64,000 bases of DNA. It comes from Glutamicibacter sp. JC586 (lineage in GTDB: Bacteria; Actinomycetota; Actinomycetes; Actinomycetales; Micrococcaceae). The notes under the pieces were generated by a model, which saw only the letters and a list, made by a program, of their open reading frames with translations, made no database searches and was not told the DNA's origin. This document shows positions 3,464 through 13,932 of this stretch, piece by piece (within the stretch, counting starts at the first letter, position 1; every line of letters begins with the position of its first letter). The DNA is taken from contig NZ_VHIN01000022.1 in assembly GCF_009805585.1 (NCBI RefSeq), positions 62,001-126,000 of the forward strand. Reading direction: 5' to 3'. The position numbers and the translations under genes are program-made.

Positions 3464-3497
3464 TTTAATGGCCGGTTCACGTGAACCGGCCATTAAA
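3464..3497. terminator. Bidirectional terminator, perfect 34-bp palindrome
   Basis: The two 17-bp arms (3464-3480 and 3481-3497) are exact reverse complements, meeting at the centre CAC|GTG. The arms begin with TTTAATGGCC and end with GGCCATTAAA, so both strands give a GC stem with a T-rich 3' side. It separates the DUF6176 gene from the convergent jetC-like gene. Confidence 0.8.
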
Positions 3498-3511: not shown

Positions 3512-6500
3512 CTAGCCGCGTAGGGTGATTGTTGTTGCCATTGCTGGCGAACGGCCCGTAGTCACAAAGCCCGAGATATTCGATCCCGGGTGTTTGATGA
3601 TGTCCGTAATCGAGCCCAGATGCCGACTCAAGTCGATCTTGTCCTCTGGCGCTGCAAGCACCAGATGGAAACCGAACTCCTGAAGAGCGCGTATGCCTGC
3701 AGCCGCATATTCAGAGTTAGCCTGAATAAAGGCCTCATCGATCATCACGGTTCCGAAAGAAGTGAATCCGGCCGAGGCAAAGCCGAGTTGGTAGGCCAAT
3801 GCTGCACCCATGATGAAGGACGTAAAGCGCTGCCCTTCACCTCCAGACAGTGTTCCAGGCTCAAGTCCCGTCTCAATTTCACCATTGGGTTTGTGCTCAT
3901 TACAGCTGATCACTACATGCTGTCGGACATCGAGAACCGTTGAACGCCAAGCATTCATCGCTGGGTCGCTGAGCGCGGTGACCAATGCTTCCAATGCTTG
4001 GTAGGAAGTAGCCAGAGACGACTCATCCTTGGTGGTGTAAGCCTCTTGCAGGGCTTGTTTGAGTTCCTTCCGGAAGGTTCCGGCTTCCACAGGAATGGCG
4101 TTTTCAACTTCTAAGCGCAGGATTGATCCGTGCTCAAAAGTGACTTCAGCCAGAATTTGATTCAGCGGTTTGATGCGTTCAGAAATCATTCGACGCTCTT
4201 CATCCAGAAGCTGCAAGAGATCGCTAAAACGTTCGTAGGAGCGGTTGGCGAAGTATTCACGGAACTGCGCCTCATGGTGAGGTAAACCGTCAGCCACGAT
4301 CTGTTCGTGAAGTTGTGCGTAGTGCTCGGCCGCTTCGGGGGTGGTTCCATGCGTCTGAGCGTGCGAGGAGCCAAAGTCCCGAGCAAAACGACGGAAGGTT
4401 TCGCTCAACGCGCTACCGACTTCTTGTCGCTGGCTACTTAGAGAGTTCAACTGACTGCCCAGCTGCAGTTTGACCTCAGCGAAAGCCTCGCTGATCTTTT
4501 CACTTGGCGGGCAGCTACCGGAGATGACCTGTTCCAGAACAGGACCTAGCAACTGGTGCTGACGTAGCGAAAGCGGAATCTCCTGCTCCCACTGCGCTGC
4601 TGGTTCTTGCGCGGTGGACAGGACTTGCTGAGCCCGCTCAACCTGTAGCTGTAGATCTTGGATCCGTGAGCGAACCAGTGCCAAGTCGCCCACGAGTTTT
4701 TCTGCTTCAGCTTTGGCAGTTTCTAGTTGCTGCCGGACGCGTGAGGAATCACCGGATAAGGACAGGGCATCGCCAAGTTTTTGCTCACCGCGACGCAACG
4801 CCTCCAGCGCACCGGATGAATCAAGCTGGCTGAAGCTGCGTTCGTCAGCGATGATGGCTTTGAGCAGCTGGGACTTGGCAACAACTTGGTTTTTCGCAGC
4901 GCTTCGCTCATCGGCGGCCTTCTGCGCCTTGATAATTTCCTGCTCTTGTCGCGCGGCTTTAGTCTGCAACTCAGCGATCTTTGATTCATTGGTGAAGCCC
5001 AAAAGATACTCGGAGGCCGGCAGCCCGCGGGTATCTCGCTCGAACGTGCCTGCACCAGATTTGATCGTTCCGGCCGGGGTAATGGCCTTGGGATGAACAT
5101 GCATCGCGGAATCATTATCAACGCAAACCAACGGATAGTCTGCGGTAATTTTTGATTTTAGCCACCGGCCTGCGTCTCCTGGAGCGAAATCGAGTTTGGT
5201 GACCAGATCGGCGGGTCCAGCATCTGCTGATTTTGGTTGCTGCGAAATATCGGTCCAACGCACTCGACCCAGCCCATCAAGCTGATCGATGGCGTGGGTC
5301 ACCTGCGAGAGCAATTCACCAGGAACCAACAAGGTTCGCGCCAAGGAATGAAGCGCCTTTTCAGCGGCCAAGCGCCACGTGGAAGCGTCCGCGGAAACAT
5401 CCATCAGTTCGCCGGCGAAGGGCAACTGATCTTCACGAAGTGAACAGGCCGAAGCGATGGCTCGACGGGCGGCAATCGCCCGCTCGTCAATGTTGCTGGC
5501 CCGACGCTGGTACGAACGAATCTGCTCATCCAGCGACTCTGCACGCTTGCGAAGATTGACCAAATTGGCCATCGCCTCATATTCGACAGTTTGCGCATCT
5601 TGGGTAATCGAGGTCAGCTGCTGCAACGTGCGTGCAGCATTCGCGCGGAGCTCTTCAAGACCGGTCGCCGTGAACTCAAAGGTTAAACCAGCATCAGACG
5701 CTTGCTGCTGCAAAGCCCGAACAATGTTCTCTTTTTCGCTCAACGTCTTACGGGCAACATCGGCTTCACGTTCAAGGAGCATGAGCGAAGCGGAACCTGC
5801 CGAATCATGTGCGGCCTCTAGGGACTGCAACTGATCATCCAGTTGTTCCTTGCGCGCACGCAACTCTTGTTCCTCAGCTTGCAGCTTTGCCAATTCACTT
5901 TGATGAGCGCTCAAGTCATTACGCAAGACCAGCTGACGAACCTGAGTTTCCAGATTTTGCACATCGCTGTCCAGCAGCTGACGGGTCTGAGTGATCTGTT
6001 CGGCTAACACGCGGTAAGCCTGATCCTGAGCAGGAACTTCTGCCAGTGCATCGCGTTGTGCACGAGCTGTATCCAGCTGACGGTAAATGCCACGTAGGTG
6101 GGCAAAGTCTTCTACTGCAGCGGCCGCGGCTTTCAGTGTTGCCGGTTCTTCCAGGACTTCGTGGCGGAAGAAAAGGTTCACGCCCTTGGCAAGCCCTTTA
6201 CCATTTTGCAAGGTACGTAGCAGCGCGAAAGCCTTGTCACTTTCCACGCCGAGCCGTCGGCGCAGGCGTTCGATGAAGGCCTTGTGAGTGTCAAAAGCTT
6301 CGGTCGGTGACAGCGCCTTGGACAGCGAGGAGACCGTGAAACGGCGAGGACCATGGTTCTCTAGCTCCGCGATGTCTACCTTGCCTTCGCATAAGAGGTA
6401 ATGCTTAGAAACCTGGCCTTCCAGACCTGCATCCGGCAAATCGAAAACGGCACCGGCGGTGAGCGTATTGCCCATTCCATCGTCGTAGCTAAGGATGATG

Positions 6501-6838
6501 GCGCTCCAAGTTGCCCCCGGGCGCTGGAACACGGTTCCTTCACTGGTTTTGAACTGACGACCTCTCATATAAGAGAAGGTCGTACGGCGGTCTTCGCGGG
6601 TGGCTGCGTCGTTGGCAGATTCGTTCAGGCGCGGGGTCGCGAAGAAAACGTGACCCATGGCGTCAAACAAGGTCGACTTGCCGACTCCGGGGTGCCCTGT
6701 CACAAGAGTTCCAGCACGGTCCACCTCAAGATCATGAAGTCCGTGGAAGGTACCCCAATTAACGATCTGAACCCTGCTGAGTCGATGTTGACCTGGATTG
6801 ATCGCGCCGCCTAGGGGAAGAGTCATTTCAATGCTCAT
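3512..6838 (-). CDS. SMC-like ATPase, JetC/MksB homologue of a Wadjet-type condensin
   Basis: A 1108-residue SMC/MukB-like ATPase, the DNA-loop-extruding subunit of Wadjet (JetC) or MksBEF (MksB) complexes. Walker A is GHPGVGKST at residues 48-56. Long glutamine- and glutamate-rich coiled coils occupy roughly 270-480 and 660-800, with a hinge-like segment between them. The ABC signature LSGGEGQR and the Walker B TVMIDEAF lie near the C-terminus (about 990-1045). It starts 3 bp after the jetB-like stop and is the last gene of a jetA-jetB-jetC operon. A JetD gene (DUF3322/DUF2220, TOPRIM nuclease subunit), which normally follows jetC in Wadjet, is absent; a terminator ends the operon instead. 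The family assignment is firm; the biological role without JetD is open. Confidence 0.9.
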   Translation of the reverse strand: MSIEMTLPLGGAINPGQHRLSRVQIVNWGTFHGLHDLEVDRAGTLVTGHPGVGKSTLFDAMGHVFFATPRLNESANDAATREDRRTTFSYMRGRQFKTSEGTVFQRPGATWSAIILSYDDGMGNTLTAGAVFDLPDAGLEGQVSKHYLLCEGKVDIAELENHGPRRFTVSSLSKALSPTEAFDTHKAFIERLRRRLGVESDKAFALLRTLQNGKGLAKGVNLFFRHEVLEEPATLKAAAAAVEDFAHLRGIYRQLDTARAQRDALAEVPAQDQAYRVLAEQITQTRQLLDSDVQNLETQVRQLVLRNDLSAHQSELAKLQAEEQELRARKEQLDDQLQSLEAAHDSAGSASLMLLEREADVARKTLSEKENIVRALQQQASDAGLTFEFTATGLEELRANAARTLQQLTSITQDAQTVEYEAMANLVNLRKRAESLDEQIRSYQRRASNIDERAIAARRAIASACSLREDQLPFAGELMDVSADASTWRLAAEKALHSLARTLLVPGELLSQVTHAIDQLDGLGRVRWTDISQQPKSADAGPADLVTKLDFAPGDAGRWLKSKITADYPLVCVDNDSAMHVHPKAITPAGTIKSGAGTFERDTRGLPASEYLLGFTNESKIAELQTKAARQEQEIIKAQKAADERSAAKNQVVAKSQLLKAIIADERSFSQLDSSGALEALRRGEQKLGDALSLSGDSSRVRQQLETAKAEAEKLVGDLALVRSRIQDLQLQVERAQQVLSTAQEPAAQWEQEIPLSLRQHQLLGPVLEQVISGSCPPSEKISEAFAEVKLQLGSQLNSLSSQRQEVGSALSETFRRFARDFGSSHAQTHGTTPEAAEHYAQLHEQIVADGLPHHEAQFREYFANRSYERFSDLLQLLDEERRMISERIKPLNQILAEVTFEHGSILRLEVENAIPVEAGTFRKELKQALQEAYTTKDESSLATSYQALEALVTALSDPAMNAWRSTVLDVRQHVVISCNEHKPNGEIETGLEPGTLSGGEGQRFTSFIMGAALAYQLGFASAGFTSFGTVMIDEAFIQANSEYAAAGIRALQEFGFHLVLAAPEDKIDLSRHLGSITDIIKHPGSNISGFVTTGRSPAMATTITLRG

Positions 6839-6841
6839 CGA

Positions 6842-7528
6842 TTACTCCTGCACCAATTCGGGGGTCTGTTCAACTAGTTCGTCATTGTCGTCAGCAGTGA
6901 GATTGAATGCTGGTTCGTTGGCATCGATTGCCGCGATATAACGAGGGATGTCTTGGATATTGCTCAATGGCAGAGCCATCGCCAACGCAGGAGAAATGCG
7001 GAATTCGTTCTCCAACTCAGTGCTGGTCAGCAAACGTAAGGACTGCAGGCGGCCAATAGCCGCATCGCAGGACTCTGCGAAACGCTTGTCATCACGATCG
7101 GTTGACTGACGGTGTTCCGCAAGGATTTCGTGCATCGTTGACCGGGAAACCACCGCATCTGTTCCACTACCGGAGTGTTGTTCTAGCAGCAGGCGTAAGC
7201 GCAAAGCCAAGAGCGTTTCATCGCGCTTGAGTGGACGGCGAGGTGCAATGGGAGCGGTATGCACCTGTTCAATTTGTGCCGGCGTGAGCATCGCAATTTT
7301 TCGATCCATGTCCAGGGTCAAAGACAAGAAAATTTCCGAGAAATAATCGGAGATGGTTTGTTGCTGATCAAGGAGCAACTGCCAAGCTGCTGCGTCGACA
7401 GATCCATCGAGGTAGGGTCCCCGCAAGAGACGGACCAGTAATTGGCGCAGTACAAGAGAGAAGTTTCCGGTATCACCGTCGAACAGTGGTTCGGTGATCG
7501 GTGCGGCGTAGGCATCGTTCGTGGTCAT
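6842..7528 (-). CDS. DUF4194 protein, JetB/MksE homologue
   Basis: A 228-residue protein of the DUF4194 family, the MukE/MksE-like winged-helix partner that joins the kleisin to the SMC ATPase in Wadjet and MksBEF complexes. The sequence is helical and charged, with the GNFSLVLRQLLVRLL segment near the N-terminus and an acidic tail. Its ATG overlaps the stop of the DUF3375 gene by 4 bp, and the SMC-like gene starts 3 bp after its own stop, so translation of all three is coupled and fixed stoichiometry is likely. Length and position in the operon agree with JetB. Confidence 0.88.
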   Translation of the reverse strand: MTTNDAYAAPITEPLFDGDTGNFSLVLRQLLVRLLRGPYLDGSVDAAAWQLLLDQQQTISDYFSEIFLSLTLDMDRKIAMLTPAQIEQVHTAPIAPRRPLKRDETLLALRLRLLLEQHSGSGTDAVVSRSTMHEILAEHRQSTDRDDKRFAESCDAAIGRLQSLRLLTSTELENEFRISPALAMALPLSNIQDIPRYIAAIDANEPAFNLTADDNDELVEQTPELVQE

Positions 7529-8985
7529 AGCGGCTCCTTCGTGAAGTGTAGGGCGGGGAGGATTGCGGTTCTCATCGAGCCGTCAAGTTGCTGGAATTCA
7601 ATATTGATCAGTTCGCTCTCATTGAGCGTTTCGCCATTGGTCCGGCCGATTTCCACCAGCGCGCGGATGGAATTTAAATGCCGGTGTTCATCTTCTAAGG
7701 CGTCAAAGACCGTGCCCAAATCCACCGTATTGTCAGCTGACGCTTCAAGATGTGCAGTGATCGAGGACCGCAAGAACTTCATATTGGCTTGTGGGGTGCT
7801 CGGATTGCGGACAATGTCGGACTCGTTGAATTCGGGAGCATGGGCCAACGGTGGCGGCGCTACATGCTCGGAAGGATCGTAGATTCCGAGCCCGAAAAGT
7901 GTCATGAACTGCGGGGTGTATAGATCTATCGGGGCCAGTCCACGGCGCGGTTTCAATGCTGTGGACTTGCTGATGGCAAGTTCTGCCTCACGAACCGCTT
8001 GCCGTAGCAACTCGGCTTGTTTGTAGTCTTCGGACTGCACAAAGGCGTGTAAGGATTCGGAGAGCTTGCCATAAGAGGTATGAACTTCGGCGGCTTGCCG
8101 GCGCAGTTCACGCAACAAATTGGTGAGAATCTGGCGTTCGGTGGCATCCAAATCGTCCACAAAGTCGCGTTCGAGTACTTCAGCAAGGGCCGAACGAAAA
8201 CGTTGCTGCGCGTCGGGAGAATTAAGGAACTCGGTGAAGCCACTAAAAGTTTCACCCTCGGCGGTAGAACGTAGCTGACGGTCTGCTTCGAGCACCTGGC
8301 CTACAGCCACTCCCTTAGCTGTGGAAGCATCGAGAATACCTTCACGCAGTGAATGCAACATGTCCTGGACACCATCACGCATACGACGGAAGTCTGCTGG
8401 CAAACTGGAAGCCAAATCCAAGAGTGAACGCGTAGCTGACAATGCAGTGGTTCGCGAGAGTACCGCGGGTTCATCACCACTACGTAGCTGCTCAATTTGG
8501 GCTTGGCGAATAGCGATCTGCGATTCAAGCGCGCGAATTCGAGCTTCTGGATCCGGATCGGTTTCATGAACCAACGATTCCAAGGAAGAAAGCAAGGTGT
8601 TCAGGCGAGAGGAGTTCAGGTGTGAGTCGTCGGTCGAAAAATCTGCCAGAAAACGTAGTGACCGCATGGTTTGAGCACTCGGTTCATAAACAAAGCGTCC
8701 ATCGATCAGTGGACGAGCCAAGATGCCTTGCTTGACCCAGCTTTCGGCAAAGTCCTGTGCAGAGTAGGACTGGGAGATCTGCTCATCGCTCTTACGCGCT
8801 TGCTTCAGGAAAGAATCGAGAGAAGCGTGAAAAAGTTCCAACGCAACTCGGGAGCGGTCCGCAGTGAATTCGGCGCGGATAAAAGCTACCGCCCAGGGTT
8901 GAGCCGTCAATAGACGATACGCTGCTGAGCTTTTGAACTGCTGAGCCTGAAGCCACAAACTATTCGCGCGGTGCGAGGGCTGCAT
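7525..8985 (-). CDS. DUF3375 protein, JetA/MksF kleisin homologue
   Basis: A 486-residue DUF3375 protein, the MukF/MksF-like kleisin subunit (JetA in Wadjet). It has an N-terminal winged-helix region rich in short helices (motif SSAYRLL at the start), a central coiled-coil stretch (about 150-190 and 290-345) and a C-terminal domain. It is the first gene of the operon. An AAGGAA Shine-Dalgarno sequence lies 5 nt before the ATG, and a TAGAAT box on the minus strand (9021-9026) is a plausible -10 element. Kleisins bridge the two SMC heads; with JetB and JetC this makes a complete condensin core but not a complete Wadjet system. Confidence 0.88.
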   Translation of the reverse strand: MQPSHRANSLWLQAQQFKSSAAYRLLTAQPWAVAFIRAEFTADRSRVALELFHASLDSFLKQARKSDEQISQSYSAQDFAESWVKQGILARPLIDGRFVYEPSAQTMRSLRFLADFSTDDSHLNSSRLNTLLSSLESLVHETDPDPEARIRALESQIAIRQAQIEQLRSGDEPAVLSRTTALSATRSLLDLASSLPADFRRMRDGVQDMLHSLREGILDASTAKGVAVGQVLEADRQLRSTAEGETFSGFTEFLNSPDAQQRFRSALAEVLERDFVDDLDATERQILTNLLRELRRQAAEVHTSYGKLSESLHAFVQSEDYKQAELLRQAVREAELAISKSTALKPRRGLAPIDLYTPQFMTLFGLGIYDPSEHVAPPPLAHAPEFNESDIVRNPSTPQANMKFLRSSITAHLEASADNTVDLGTVFDALEDEHRHLNSIRALVEIGRTNGETLNESELINIEFQQLDGSMRTAILPALHFTKEPL

Positions 8986-9212: not shown

Positions 9213-10490
9213 ATGAAGTTCTTCTCGGCGGTAATTTCGATCTGTCTTGTGATGACTCTGGCTGCTTGCAGTGACCCAGGTGACCAGCAAAGCCCCTCGA
9301 CCAATGCCTCTACCAGCGATGATGATCAGCGTATTGCTGGTGTCAAAGCAGAGATTAACAGGCTGGCTGATGGGTACGATTACGATGCTGCGATCAAGCT
9401 AGCCAAAGACGATGCTAGCGATGAACTCAACTCCATGGCCCGAGGCCTTGAAGAGGAAAAAGAGCAAACTACGCCGTGGGAGCATCCGGAGAAGATCCCG
9501 CACCTGTTTTTCCATTCGCTCATCGTGGACACCGATCGAGCATTTGACCAAGACAGTCGTTCGGGCGGATACGAGGACTATATGGTGACCCAGAAGGAAT
9601 TCTCACAGATCCTCCAGGAGCTCTATAAGAGGGACTATGTGCTGGTTAATCCTGAAGACTTTGCAGCGCTGAACAAGCAGAAGAAGATGGAATATCGAAA
9701 GATCATGCTGCCTAAGGGTAAAAAGCCGCTGGTCTTATCGGTTGACGACCTGAGCTACTACGAGTACATGGACGGCGATGGATTCGCTAGCAGACTAGTG
9801 CTGGATGATCATGGCAAGGTCCGCAACGAGTACGTCGACGCTGCCGGGAAGAAGCAGCTTGGTGCTTTTGACGTCACCACGATGGTTGATGACTTTGTCG
9901 GCGAACATCCTGATTTCACGTACCGCGACGCCCGGGGCCTTGTAGCAATGACGGGCTATAACGGTGAATTTGGCTACCGCACCTCACCAAGCCAATATCC
10001 GAAGAACAAGAATCTTGCAAAGGATCAAAAAGACGCAACGGCCATTGCTGAAGCTATGAAAAATACGGGGTGGGTATTTGCCTCGCACTCTTGGGGTCAT
10101 CTGAATACGGGCTCAGTGAGCATGGCGCGCCTTCAAAGTGACACCAAACTATGGAAAGAGGAAGTTGAGCCCATCGTTGGTCCCACGGATCAATACATCT
10201 ATCCCTTCGGTGCTGATATCGCTCAAACCAATACCTATTCAGGTGCTCGTTACGAATACCTGAAAAGTCAGGGATTTGATTACTTTTATGGGGTGGACGG
10301 GACTACAGAGTCGTGGATGCAACAGGTCGGTGGTTACCAACGACAGATGCGCATTAACATTGACGGGCTTCAATTCGCCAAAGAAAAAGCTGGTGATCGT
10401 CCTGTACTGGCGAACTTCTTCGACGTCGACAAGGTGATCGACCCAGCGCGAAAAGCGCTGGATCGATCTAAAAAGTCTACAAAGCCATAA
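9213..10490 (+). CDS. Polysaccharide deacetylase-like lipoprotein
   Basis: A 425-residue exported protein. The signal peptide has a lipobox LAAC with the lipidated cysteine at residue 19, followed by a Ser/Asp-rich tether. The body looks like a NodB/polysaccharide-deacetylase fold: a strand ending in VLSVDDL, consistent with the first metal-ligand Asp pair, and the segment ASHSWGHLNTGS, which fits the H-x3-5-H metal motif. These enzymes remove acetyl groups from cell-wall glycans at the outer face of the membrane. The gap between the motifs is longer than usual, so activity is inferred, not proven. It is transcribed divergently from the condensin operon, and its 3' end overlaps the convergent nuclease/helicase gene by 14 bp. 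Confidence 0.75.
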   Translation: MKFFSAVISICLVMTLAACSDPGDQQSPSTNASTSDDDQRIAGVKAEINRLADGYDYDAAIKLAKDDASDELNSMARGLEEEKEQTTPWEHPEKIPHLFFHSLIVDTDRAFDQDSRSGGYEDYMVTQKEFSQILQELYKRDYVLVNPEDFAALNKQKKMEYRKIMLPKGKKPLVLSVDDLSYYEYMDGDGFASRLVLDDHGKVRNEYVDAAGKKQLGAFDVTTMVDDFVGEHPDFTYRDARGLVAMTGYNGEFGYRTSPSQYPKNKNLAKDQKDATAIAEAMKNTGWVFASHSWGHLNTGSVSMARLQSDTKLWKEEVEPIVGPTDQYIYPFGADIAQTNTYSGARYEYLKSQGFDYFYGVDGTTESWMQQVGGYQRQMRINIDGLQFAKEKAGDRPVLANFFDVDKVIDPARKALDRSKKSTKP

Positions 10491-13400
10491 AGGCGCCGAG
10501 TTGTGACAACGCAGCCGGGGAAGAAGGCAAATAATCCGTGAGTCGCTCACTACGGACGATGACGGCTTTCCATTGACCGCGAGAAATCGCGACATTGATT
10601 CTATTGCGATTCAACAAGAACTCAATGCCACGCGAGGCATCATCAGCGCTGGAACAGGCCATGCTCATTAAGACGACTGGGGCCTCTTGACCTTGGAACT
10701 TATCTACCGTGCCAACTTTGACCGCTTCAAGACCATGGTCTGCAAGCTCTTCGCGGACCAAGTTCACTTGAGCGTTATAGGCTGCGACAACAAGAATGTC
10801 ACTGGGCTCCAACGCACGTACAGCTTTGCCTGGTCCTGGATTCCATGGCAGACCTAGGTGTTCAAGAATGAGGTCTATGATCGCGTCCGCTTCCTGTTTC
10901 GAACTGACCGTATTGCCACGGTGTTCTACAATACGCGTGCTGACTCCGGCCGGGGTGCCTTCGAGAACCCGCAGTCCGGCAGCATGTGCTGAAAACAGCT
11001 GGTTGTCGTAGCTCAAAGCTGAGACCTTGGCACACAGTTCGGGGTGCATCCGCCATGAGGAGGCAAGGAAATAACCCAGTTCGGAAGGCAATACGGGTGC
11101 ACCAGCGGAGAGCCATCCCAAGGCAGACTCATCCACCGGCTGAGGATGTGAACCCTGGGTGACCTGAGGCAGCTGCTGTGGGTCCCCGAGCAATAACAAG
11201 TTCCGCGCAGCGCGCGAGACGGCCAAAGTATTGGCCAGAGAGAACTGTCCGGCTTCGTCGATGACCAGCAGATCCAGCGATCCGGCCGGCACTTTGGAAC
11301 CGGTCAAAGTCCACGCAGTGCCACCGACCAAAGCGCCGTCGGCGGAATTCAAAGCTTGCGCAACTGAATCTTTTGAAGTCCCCGCCCATGGAACAGGATC
11401 CTTGTGTTTGACTTCTTTGGCGACCACTTCGGGATCGACACCGGCTTCAACGGCTTTACGTAAGACGTTTTCCACCACTGCATGTGATTGAGCAACGACA
11501 CCGATTTTCCAACCGGCATCGATCAACTCACGAATCACGTGGGAAGCTACGAAGGTCTTGCCAGTACCCGGAGGCCCCTGGACCGCAAGATACGAGTTAT
11601 CAAGATCCTTGAGAGTTTCAACTACGGCCGAGTAGATTTGCGGTTGACCATCCGCCATTACTGGCTCAGCTGGTGCGGGCAATGACTTCAGTCGTGGTGC
11701 AATACGACGAAGGATATCGATTCCCGGTTGCTGGGGCAGTGTCGGTACTGTGGCCCCAACCTTTTGCGCAATTTCATTCAACGCGTCATCGATGCTCTTG
11801 GTCATCAACGGTTTGTCTGGAGTCAGCGCAACAGGGAATGAACCGTAGGGTGGGATTTTTGCTGTGGACTTCTCGGCGACAATTAGCCACCCCTCACCGA
11901 CCTCCACGACGGAAGTATTAAAAGCACCGCCACGTAGCGACTCATCTACTTCCATACCTTCAGGAAGTGGGCCGGTGAACATGGCAAAGACTGCCGAGCC
12001 GGGGGACAGCAATGAGCCTTCAGCCAAGGTGCCTTTCAGCTTAGTGATTCGAGTGAAAGTGCGCGCCTTTGGTGTGGCCTTATGCCAGTCCTCGATCACC
12101 TGCGCACTGTCCACCGTAAAGACTCCTCGAACATCGCTCCATTCATCCACAGGTGCCGAGAGCCGGTCGTAGTGTTCCCACCAGAACTGCTTTTTCTCGC
12201 GACGGTTGTAACCGGTGGCAGCGGCAACCATAGCGATAGCACGATCATCATCGCTCAGTGGCTGTCCTTGGGGAAGGGAGGTTAGATACTTCTGGAGGCG
12301 TAGCTCCTCGGGGGTCGGCTCGTACTCGTTGGTGGTTTCTTCTAACAGGGGCAGCTCAGGCGCCGATGCCGGGTGATGCTCTTCCAGAGACAGAAGCCAG
12401 TCGCGCAAGCGCAAGGTTGAGAGACAGTCGTACTCGTTGTAGTCAGCAATGGATTCCAGCACCGCATTGGCGGTGGGTTCATCATTGGCCGCGCGTGCCT
12501 GCATGTAATGGGCATACGCGACGACGGAGGCGCCGGCATCGGTAACGTCCCCGCCACGTAGATGGGATCCCATATATAGGGGTTCGAGCTTCTTGATGGA
12601 ATATGAGCGGGTAGAGACAACTAGTGAGTTGCGCACGGTTTCATAGAGGTCCACGAGTAGGTTCTCGCGCAGCCAGGCATCTACTTCCTCTTCACCGGCG
12701 ATATGGACCTGAGAAAGCTTTCGCAGTGCAGACTTTTCGTAGGCAGCGTAGTGGTAAATCTTCATCTGTGGGTAGCGTTGGCGACGCTGCTGCACGTAGC
12801 TGATGAATTCTAGGAAGGCTTGGCGTTCTTCGGCGCGGTTGTGAGCCCAAAAAGGTCGGAACACCGGTTCGCCGGTGTCATGTTCAATGACGCCGAAGAG
12901 GTACTCCAAACCCCAAGAACCATCGGTTTTTTCCTGGTACAGCGGGTCGCCTTCAAAATCGAAGAAAATATCACCCGGGTTGGGCGCTGGCAGCGAAGTG
13001 ATGGTTTGTGAGGATTTGACCCTGAAGCTTACCCCTTGCACTGAACCATCGACTTGACCCAAACCAAGTTGCATTTGTGCCTGGTCAACCATCCGGGCTA
13101 GCGATGTTCCTGGCTGTGCCTTAACCTCGGCCAGCTCTTGAATAGTGAAGATCTGGCGCTGTCGCAGCTTTTCGCGTTGCGTCATGGACATGCCAGCGAC
13201 CAAGAGAACGTCGTGTGTTGCCTGCACCTGCTCGCCGCAGTAATCGCACCGTCCACAAACGCGGATTTGGTCGGAGTTCCAGAGCACCGGCGTCTGTGCT
13301 GAACGATGCTCGTTGATCATTTTGAGGAAGCGAGCACGCTGCGCCCTGAAGACGGGGAGTATCTCATCGACGCGATGCACTGAGTGGGTGCCATCGCCGA

Positions 13401-13932
13401 GCACGAGGGTGGTTTTCGTCGAAATAGGGATGTCTTCTGCGATCATCTGATCCGCATAGGCGGCCACTTGAAGCAGGGCACTGACCCGAGCGTGGCGAGC
13501 TAACTTGGTATCCCAGACCGCCCACGACCCGTCAGGCTGACGGACCAAGAAATCGGCAAAACCGATGAAGGAACCGTCGAAAAAAGTCGCCTGGAAAATG
13601 ACATCAGCACCACTGCGTAGCACAGAGATGGTTTGTTCATGTGCCGCGCGTAGTCCTTCGGGGCTCATCGTTGGCCGCTCATGGAACTGCTTAACTCCAG
13701 TGCCATTGGCCGGATCATATTCGCCGTAGGTATTGATCAGTTCAGCCAACACGTTATGTTCATGCACGTCGCCAAGCACTGCGGTGCGTTCGAGCATTTC
13801 ATCACGGACGTCTTCGAACGCTGGGCGTCGCCCGAGCTTCACGTCAAGCTTGTACAGCGACTGGAAATTGCAGTCAACGGCCACTGCAAGGTCACTGGCA
13901 GAGAAGATGAATTGATCTTCCAAAAAGAACAC
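10477..13932 (-). CDS. TM0106-family RecB-like nuclease fused to superfamily 1 helicase
   Basis: A 1151-residue multidomain protein starting with GTG behind a GAAAGG ribosome site. The N-terminal 250 residues resemble the TM0106 family RecB-like nuclease, including VWDTKL (the E/D-x-K type motif) and a cysteine cluster CGRCDYC that may hold an Fe-S cluster or zinc. The middle has an RNase H-like exonuclease domain (FFDFEGDP near 330, HYAAYEKSALRKL near 395). The C-terminal half is a DNA2/NAM7-type helicase: Walker A GPPGTGKT (about 785), Walker B VIDEAGQF, and the motif VI region NVAISRG near the end. It probably resects or processes nucleic acid ends. The 3' end overlaps the convergent lipoprotein gene. 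A defence or repair role is inference. Confidence 0.88.
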   Translation of the reverse strand: MFFLEDQFIFSASDLAVAVDCNFQSLYKLDVKLGRRPAFEDVRDEMLERTAVLGDVHEHNVLAELINTYGEYDPANGTGVKQFHERPTMSPEGLRAAHEQTISVLRSGADVIFQATFFDGSFIGFADFLVRQPDGSWAVWDTKLARHARVSALLQVAAYADQMIAEDIPISTKTTLVLGDGTHSVHRVDEILPVFRAQRARFLKMINEHRSAQTPVLWNSDQIRVCGRCDYCGEQVQATHDVLLVAGMSMTQREKLRQRQIFTIQELAEVKAQPGTSLARMVDQAQMQLGLGQVDGSVQGVSFRVKSSQTITSLPAPNPGDIFFDFEGDPLYQEKTDGSWGLEYLFGVIEHDTGEPVFRPFWAHNRAEERQAFLEFISYVQQRRQRYPQMKIYHYAAYEKSALRKLSQVHIAGEEEVDAWLRENLLVDLYETVRNSLVVSTRSYSIKKLEPLYMGSHLRGGDVTDAGASVVAYAHYMQARAANDEPTANAVLESIADYNEYDCLSTLRLRDWLLSLEEHHPASAPELPLLEETTNEYEPTPEELRLQKYLTSLPQGQPLSDDDRAIAMVAAATGYNRREKKQFWWEHYDRLSAPVDEWSDVRGVFTVDSAQVIEDWHKATPKARTFTRITKLKGTLAEGSLLSPGSAVFAMFTGPLPEGMEVDESLRGGAFNTSVVEVGEGWLIVAEKSTAKIPPYGSFPVALTPDKPLMTKSIDDALNEIAQKVGATVPTLPQQPGIDILRRIAPRLKSLPAPAEPVMADGQPQIYSAVVETLKDLDNSYLAVQGPPGTGKTFVASHVIRELIDAGWKIGVVAQSHAVVENVLRKAVEAGVDPEVVAKEVKHKDPVPWAGTSKDSVAQALNSADGALVGGTAWTLTGSKVPAGSLDLLVIDEAGQFSLANTLAVSRAARNLLLLGDPQQLPQVTQGSHPQPVDESALGWLSAGAPVLPSELGYFLASSWRMHPELCAKVSALSYDNQLFSAHAAGLRVLEGTPAGVSTRIVEHRGNTVSSKQEADAIIDLILEHLGLPWNPGPGKAVRALEPSDILVVAAYNAQVNLVREELADHGLEAVKVGTVDKFQGQEAPVVLMSMACSSADDASRGIEFLLNRNRINVAISRGQWKAVIVRSERLTDYLPSSPAALSQLGAFMAL

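Follow-up and report, generated by a model that had tools for sequence, protein, structure and literature searches.

A Wadjet-like JetABC operon without its nuclease is conserved in Glutamicibacter and related Micrococcaceae and may act as an accessory chromosome condensin

What does a Wadjet motor do when no nuclease accompanies it? The question is raised by a three-gene operon, jetABC, in a stretch of 64,000 nucleotides of the Glutamicibacter sp. JC586 genome (contig NZ_VHIN01000022.1, positions 62,001 to 126,000; hereafter the window, in whose own numbering coordinates are given). It touches on what a review calls a paradox, namely that related SMC (structural maintenance of chromosomes) complexes either secure chromosomes or destroy foreign circular DNA, and in Wadjet the completed extrusion of a small circle has been proposed to trigger the nuclease JetD (PMC10586767). 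We propose, with a probability of about 0.6, that this operon encodes a Wadjet core that lacks the nuclease and now serves the chromosome as an accessory condensin, a second one next to SMC-ScpAB.

A JetABC core without JetD

The three genes lie on the minus strand: jetA (7525..8985), first in the operon, codes for an MksF-like kleisin of 486 residues (DUF3375), jetB (6842..7528) for an MksE-like KITE subunit of 228 residues (DUF4194), and jetC (3512..6838), last in the operon, for an MksB-like SMC ATPase of 1108 residues. A reading of this DNA made from the sequence alone (hereafter the sequence-only reading) had described a tight operon of DUF3375, DUF4194 and SMC-like genes, and open reading frames (ORFs), Pfam and PADLOC all agree with it, including the 4-bp overlap of jetA with jetB and the 3-bp spacing between jetB and jetC. 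Against Pfam, JetA matches DUF3375 (PF11855) with 347.5 bits, JetB matches DUF4194 (PF13835) with 123.9 bits and MksE (PF21980) with 34.9 bits (cut-off 27), and JetC matches AAA_29 and SbcC_Walker_B. The PADLOC matches are full-length, with 755 bits for JetA1 (PDLC00447), 288 for JetB1 and 1083 for JetC1 (PDLC00518, over positions 4-1102). Among solved structures, the nearest to the three proteins are Wadjet JetA, JetB and JetC: JetA matches solved JetA chains at E 5e-13, a 22-row profile that includes the window JetB matches solved JetB chains at E 9e-11, and JetC matches chain 8dk2_C at E 4.7e-72. We take the solved chains 8as8 and 8dk1-8dk3 to come from E. coli GF4-3 and P. aeruginosa PA14, an assumption in line with PMC10586767. 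The genes jetA, jetB and jetC are thus intact, full-length, tightly coupled and related to type I Wadjet.

The set found in this operon, JetA, JetB and JetC, is that of Wadjet without JetD or, in the other nomenclature, MksB, MksE and MksF without MksG. The nuclease, recognizable by DUF3322 together with JetD_C/DUF2220, was found neither beside jetABC in the window nor anywhere else in the genome (26 contigs, 100% complete), in which both JetD_C (PF09983) and DUF3322 (PF11795) gave 0 matches and matched the C. glutamicum positive control. The absence of jetD on both sides of the operon, pointed out in the sequence-only reading, is confirmed, and the genome-wide profile search for JetD/MksG that it had proposed brought to light no homologue that might have contradicted it. 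The genome also carries ScpA (E 1.4e-52) and an SMC hinge protein (SMC_hinge, E 4.1e-13), so that JetABC is a second SMC system, coexisting with SMC-ScpAB as judged by these two matches.

Conservation of the locus in Glutamicibacter

Full-length, uninterrupted JetC is present in all 18 genus genomes examined, the other 17 proteins being 72-94% identical to that of the window. Neighbourhoods were read in 16 of these genomes, G536 and G537 being left out (genome and locus numbers are our own), and in all 16 jetABC occupies the same place without jetD. It is flanked on one side by an FtsX-like permease gene and on the other by deacetylase-like, RecB-like helicase, 103-residue, M50-like and YihY-like genes; a DUF6176 gene was scored in 9 of the 16. 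The sequence-only reading had suggested such a survey of related genomes and had named the same operon with jetD in close relatives as the result that would point to a recent deletion. That arrangement appeared in none of the 16 genus loci and in the flanks of none of the best 80 of 238 loci from named records, although six of these have fewer than 300 bases downstream of jetC and cannot exclude JetD. A recent deletion can be rejected, as no close relative examined carries jetD at this locus.

The distances of JetA, JetB and JetC follow those of the RecB-like and YihY neighbours (r 0.84-0.96), which is consistent with vertical inheritance, as for a core gene. Only 8 of 72,556 plasmid records match at E 1e-20, two of them above 35% identity (51% and 37%) and both longer than 750 kb, a near-absence that is unlike a mobile defence cassette. 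One record of 754 kb (NZ_CP012477.1, L249), which bears the label of a plasmid from Arthrobacter sp. ERGS1:01, carries an orphan jetABC, that is, one without jetD, together with the RecB-like gene, and may be a secondary replicon or owe its name to an assembly label.

JetD_C was found in 5 of the 18 genus genomes and is hence absent from 13. In G023, G095, G191 and G238, JetD belongs to a separate operon with JetA, JetC and JetD matches, whose jetC is split in two ORFs in G191 and whose jetB was unmatched by a narrow query in G095. This operon lies on another contig or megabases away from the orphan jetABC in G023, G095 and G191; in G238 (contig 5; L069, L070) a distantly related jetABCD operon was observed about 12 kb from the orphan one. 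Glutamicibacter protophormiae is an example of a species that has both systems. The fifth genome, G112, has JetD as fragments only (L080, contig 2, about 62.9-63.2 kb), with no jetABC detected in the 19.5 kb around them, likely a decaying Wadjet remnant. Where an operon includes both genes, jetC and jetD usually share 4-11 bases. In the same comparison, the only same-strand ORFs that start within 150 bases after an orphan jetC are a multicopper oxidase gene in L088 and ORFs in five genus loci (L061, L064, L065, L073 and L075), where they are antisense to the DUF6176 or FtsX-like gene; a wider ORF list includes, in L087, a 248-residue ORF that overlaps the end of jetC.

Distribution in the family and the class

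Among 245 genomes of the family, JetA occurs in 141, JetD_C in 62 and JetA without JetD in 82. For 118 of them an orphan-type jetABC can be estimated; this count derives from E-value classes and match numbers rather than from the single loci, and it leaves out G010 and 22 genomes that have Wadjet only. The best 80 of 238 named loci come from Glutamicibacter, Paeniglutamicibacter, Zafaria, Zhihengliuella, Arthrobacter, Pseudarthrobacter and others, plus one record labelled Sporosarcina (L160); JetC and JetB are present in all 80 and JetA in 79, the contig of L161 beginning in jetB.

In a JetC tree of 122 rows, from which we left out L078, whose jetC falls into two ORFs, and L205, where none was found near jetA, the 51 orphan family rows form a single JetD-less group with local support 100. 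A 60-row mixture-model tree agrees, its 14 clade rows grouping with support 100. Both trees are unrooted, and some genomes stand twice among the 122 rows as named and unnamed records, two such pairs being identical. The clade adjoins a mixed group of 17 JetD-less and 5 JetD-bearing rows, and two more JetD-less groups, with one JetD-bearing row (L245), lie elsewhere. At the least, the JetD label changes 8 times on the tree of 122 rows and 6 times on that of 60, with no direction assigned. In a group that otherwise lacks JetD, the JetD-bearing operon of L245 (G520) branches at the base, a position in which regain and retention of JetD are indistinguishable.

The pattern extends to the class. In a sample of 295 genomes, which includes that of the window and a few others of the family, JetA was found in 58 and JetD_C in 32; 27 genomes have JetA while lacking JetD altogether, and at 34 of the 59 JetA places counted no JetD lies within 12 kb. 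This count omits fragmentary JetA places, and among the 34 are G503, whose contig ends in jetC, and G440, where no jetC was found. The absence of JetD is an old lineage trait that is common among Actinomycetes, which could not be seen from the window alone.

Could a divergent JetD sit directly downstream? A Pfam scan of ten ORFs behind JetD-less jetC genes identified none as JetD, the ten being a multicopper oxidase, an SbcD-like phosphoesterase, a glyoxalase, a PIF1-like helicase, a transposase, a periplasmic binding protein and four without family. Three family-less ORFs outside the clade (in L206, L214 and L216) overlap or abut jetC and match nothing; these may encode a very divergent partner. 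A conserved replacement gene behind jetC was likewise rejected, since the downstream genes of 31 JetD-less non-clade loci form clusters that span two loci at most. In three Arthrobacter loci (L150, L155 and L156) out of ten scanned (L149-L158), a 5S ribosomal RNA gene lies 0.1-2.7 kb behind the orphan jetC, and this vicinity of a ribosomal RNA operon may explain the contig ends there.

Selection and ATPase motifs

In seven of eight genus pairs, the ratio of nonsynonymous to synonymous substitution rates (dN/dS) of jetA and jetC is 0.02-0.05, lower than in any neighbour for which a ratio was obtained. The eighth and closest pair (L061/L065) has 0.13 for jetA/jetC and lower values for the YihY and M50 genes, and jetB ranges over the eight pairs from 0.04 to 0.15, not always under its neighbours. 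Saturation affects several of the dS values, which lie above 1. These ratios indicate that the jetABC lineage is under strong purifying selection. The Walker A motif, the ABC signature and the Walker B motif with its catalytic glutamate are invariant columns in our alignment (A1), and the three patterns occur in 51 of 51 clade rows; being fitted to the clade, they miss signatures elsewhere (the three match 81, 51 and 66 of 82 JetD-less rows), and the clade count alone is used. JetC has in these motifs what a functional SMC ATPase would need, and its activity can be predicted.

Flanking features

Between the convergent jetC and DUF6176 genes, a script located a perfect 34-bp inverted repeat (3464..3497, assigned to no strand), a possible transcription end of the operon. 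The sequence-only reading had called it a perfect 34-bp terminator: the repeat itself stands as described, and its identity as terminator of jetABC is plausible, the jetC-side strand folding far more strongly than shuffled sequences (z -5.7) but having no T-run and no call from a terminator scan. Within 130 bases behind jetC, six of 15 other genus loci have an inverted repeat of different sequence whose arms measure 15-24 bases, and the remaining nine have short ones only. The idea that the 34-bp repeat is a deletion scar found no support.

A gene for a RecB-like nuclease/helicase (10477..13932) lies 1.5 kb upstream of jetA, where the sequence-only reading had placed it. The protein has two parts, with RNase H-like and helicase domains (Pfam), and a relative in an Arthrobacter record is named 'bifunctional RecB family nuclease/DEAD/DEAH box helicase'. 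Because a gene on the opposite strand (9213-10490) separates it from jetA, the RecB-like gene and jetABC do not form one operon.

Discussion

How might such a core work? Dimers of JetC would bind and hydrolyse ATP and load on DNA, the kleisin JetA would bridge the JetC ATPases, and JetB would bind JetA; the complex would then extrude DNA loops with ATP and so aid chromosome organization or segregation. With no JetD there would be no cut, and the motor would only fold DNA. The loss of JetD, or its separation from the operon, would be old and no later than the radiation of the Micrococcaceae clade considered here. Within this proposal we infer that loop extrusion is retained, that the chromosome is its target and that an original JetD has disappeared, as against a lineage that had none from the start, the last because JetD-bearing relatives are widely spread, although the tree is unrooted. 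The condensin function itself is suggested by the precedent of JetD-less MksBEF in P. aeruginosa and by the arrangement of two condensins in one genome. The sequence-only reading had offered two possibilities, a complex that works as a chromosome condensin only or one that uses another nuclease; we infer that the first is now better supported, and the second has lost ground.

Several observations weigh against a condensin role. The actinobacterium that has been studied points elsewhere: MksB of C. glutamicum, which has MksG, acts on plasmids and has no effect on chromosome folding (PMC7083940). A JetD-free complex could also act on plasmids, by compaction or sequestering, and both conservation and purifying selection fit any useful function. 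Comparison of 114 positions conserved in JetD-bearing systems revealed no sequence mark of a lost JetD docking site. Twenty of them are changed in the clade, and of those 20, 10 and 15 are also changed in two other JetD-less groups (expected 4.4 and 7.7); as a mark of lost docking they were nevertheless rejected, because 16 of the 20 are altered in L245 too, a relative that has JetD alongside. The clade has moreover retained an N-terminal JetB motif of the LF.GD.G type. This motif may correspond to IFDR, the JetB motif named as contacting JetD (PMC10586767). Finally, the data reject only weakly that the fixed JetD-less groups all go back to one origin (approximately unbiased test, p 0.046, 46 rows without L245), so that the number of independent JetD losses is uncertain.

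These points lead to the possibility that JetABC controls plasmids without a nuclease, by compacting, silencing or trapping small circular DNA uncut. It draws on the studied actinobacterial relatives, which act on plasmids and not on chromosomes (PMC7083940, PMC10123090), and yet we consider it unlikely: plasmid suppression in B. subtilis is reported to need all four subunits (PMC10586767), so that a changed mode would be required, a system against plasmids would not usually keep one chromosomal place and occur throughout a genus, and JetD-bearing operons are sporadic in the genus (4 of 18 genomes). Plasmid restriction by means of a nuclease encoded elsewhere, either the RecB-like neighbour or an unrecognized protein, seems more doubtful still. 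The RecB-like gene is a neighbour of jetABC in every one of the 16 genus loci read and also in several further genera. Of the best 80 of 238 named loci, 27 have it within the flank retrieved, and it co-occurs with orphan jetABC above chance, 89 of the 245 family genomes having both (odds ratio 4.9, p 5e-9, uncorrected for ancestry). However, 29 of 118 orphan-type genomes have no RecB-like gene and 49 of 138 genomes with a RecB-like gene have no orphan jetABC; this distribution, untied to that of jetABC, makes it a poor substitute nuclease, a neighbour rather than an obligate partner. The opposite-strand gene that intervenes in the window and the lack of any gene conserved behind orphan jetC speak against this explanation too, and the suggestion of another nuclease 1.5 kb away is weakened even though the position of the gene was correct.

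That JetABC borrows JetD in trans from a separate Wadjet operon or a plasmid is very improbable. Although 38 of the 118 orphan-type genomes hold a JetD_C match, fragments included, the other 80, that of the window among them, have none, and seven JetB proteins from JetD-bearing operons align with the window JetB at only 20-25% identity. Least credible is a decaying Wadjet remnant left by the loss of jetD, an idea to which the mixture of JetD-less and JetD-bearing members in the sister clade and the JetD fragments of G112 lend some colour. The uninterrupted jetC of 18 of 18 genus genomes, the low dN/dS and the three motifs in every clade row refute it for the clade, unless selection acts on something besides the proteins. 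A chromosome condensin derived from a Wadjet core remains our preferred explanation.

How does the operon compare with known systems? Type I Wadjet (JetABCD, MksBEFG or EptABCD, including MksBEFG of C. glutamicum) shares with it the gene order jetA-jetB-jetC, the tight coupling and the three protein families, whereas the operon studied here has no JetD in operon or genome, its own clade in the tree and a fixed chromosomal place in the genus. MksBEF of P. aeruginosa, a condensin thought to have lost JetD (PMC7485682, PMC10586767), likewise has three subunits without nuclease in a genome that also has SMC-ScpAB; it belongs to a separate group of organisms, and we liken the two by subunit set and genome context, not by sequence, the chromosome role being putative in our case. 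MukBEF of enterobacteria, which PMC10586767 treats as well, also combines kleisin, KITE and SMC without nuclease and works on the chromosome, but it apparently replaced SMC-ScpAB, whereas an SMC hinge protein and ScpA are present here. No MukBEF chain was found among the solved-structure matches of JetA, JetB and JetC.

Paenarthrobacter lasiusi, presumably a member of the same family as the window organism, provides a further comparison. Its strain S21 has 'Wadjet: JetA, JetB, JetC' without JetD beside a separate Wadjet type I (PMC11719660, Table 6), tabulated as a defence system and, in the part of that paper available, without comment. The kind of system, MksBEF without MksG, is already known in P. 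aeruginosa (PMC10586767, PMC7485682). In the literature searched, which consisted of titles and the beginnings of abstracts with few subscription papers, we found no description of a fixed JetD-less lineage in actinobacteria, and the clade described here appears to have gone unremarked there.

A wider and more tentative possibility, to which we would give rather less than even chances, is that in Actinobacteria the motors of Wadjet defence became chromosome condensins, and probably did so repeatedly, with the clade in Micrococcaceae as one fixed case. In the Actinomycetes sample, 34 of 59 JetA places are without JetD in the surrounding 12 kb, a warning that defence is overcounted when JetA, JetB and JetC are the sole markers used for annotation. 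For the paradox mentioned at the outset, this clade provides a natural comparison, as it keeps the motor but no nuclease, and some of its cells also house JetD-bearing relatives of the system. If the proposal is true, a condensin and its still-armed Wadjet cousin would be at work together within one cell in some genomes, and many actinobacterial 'Wadjet' calls would be condensins, not defences.

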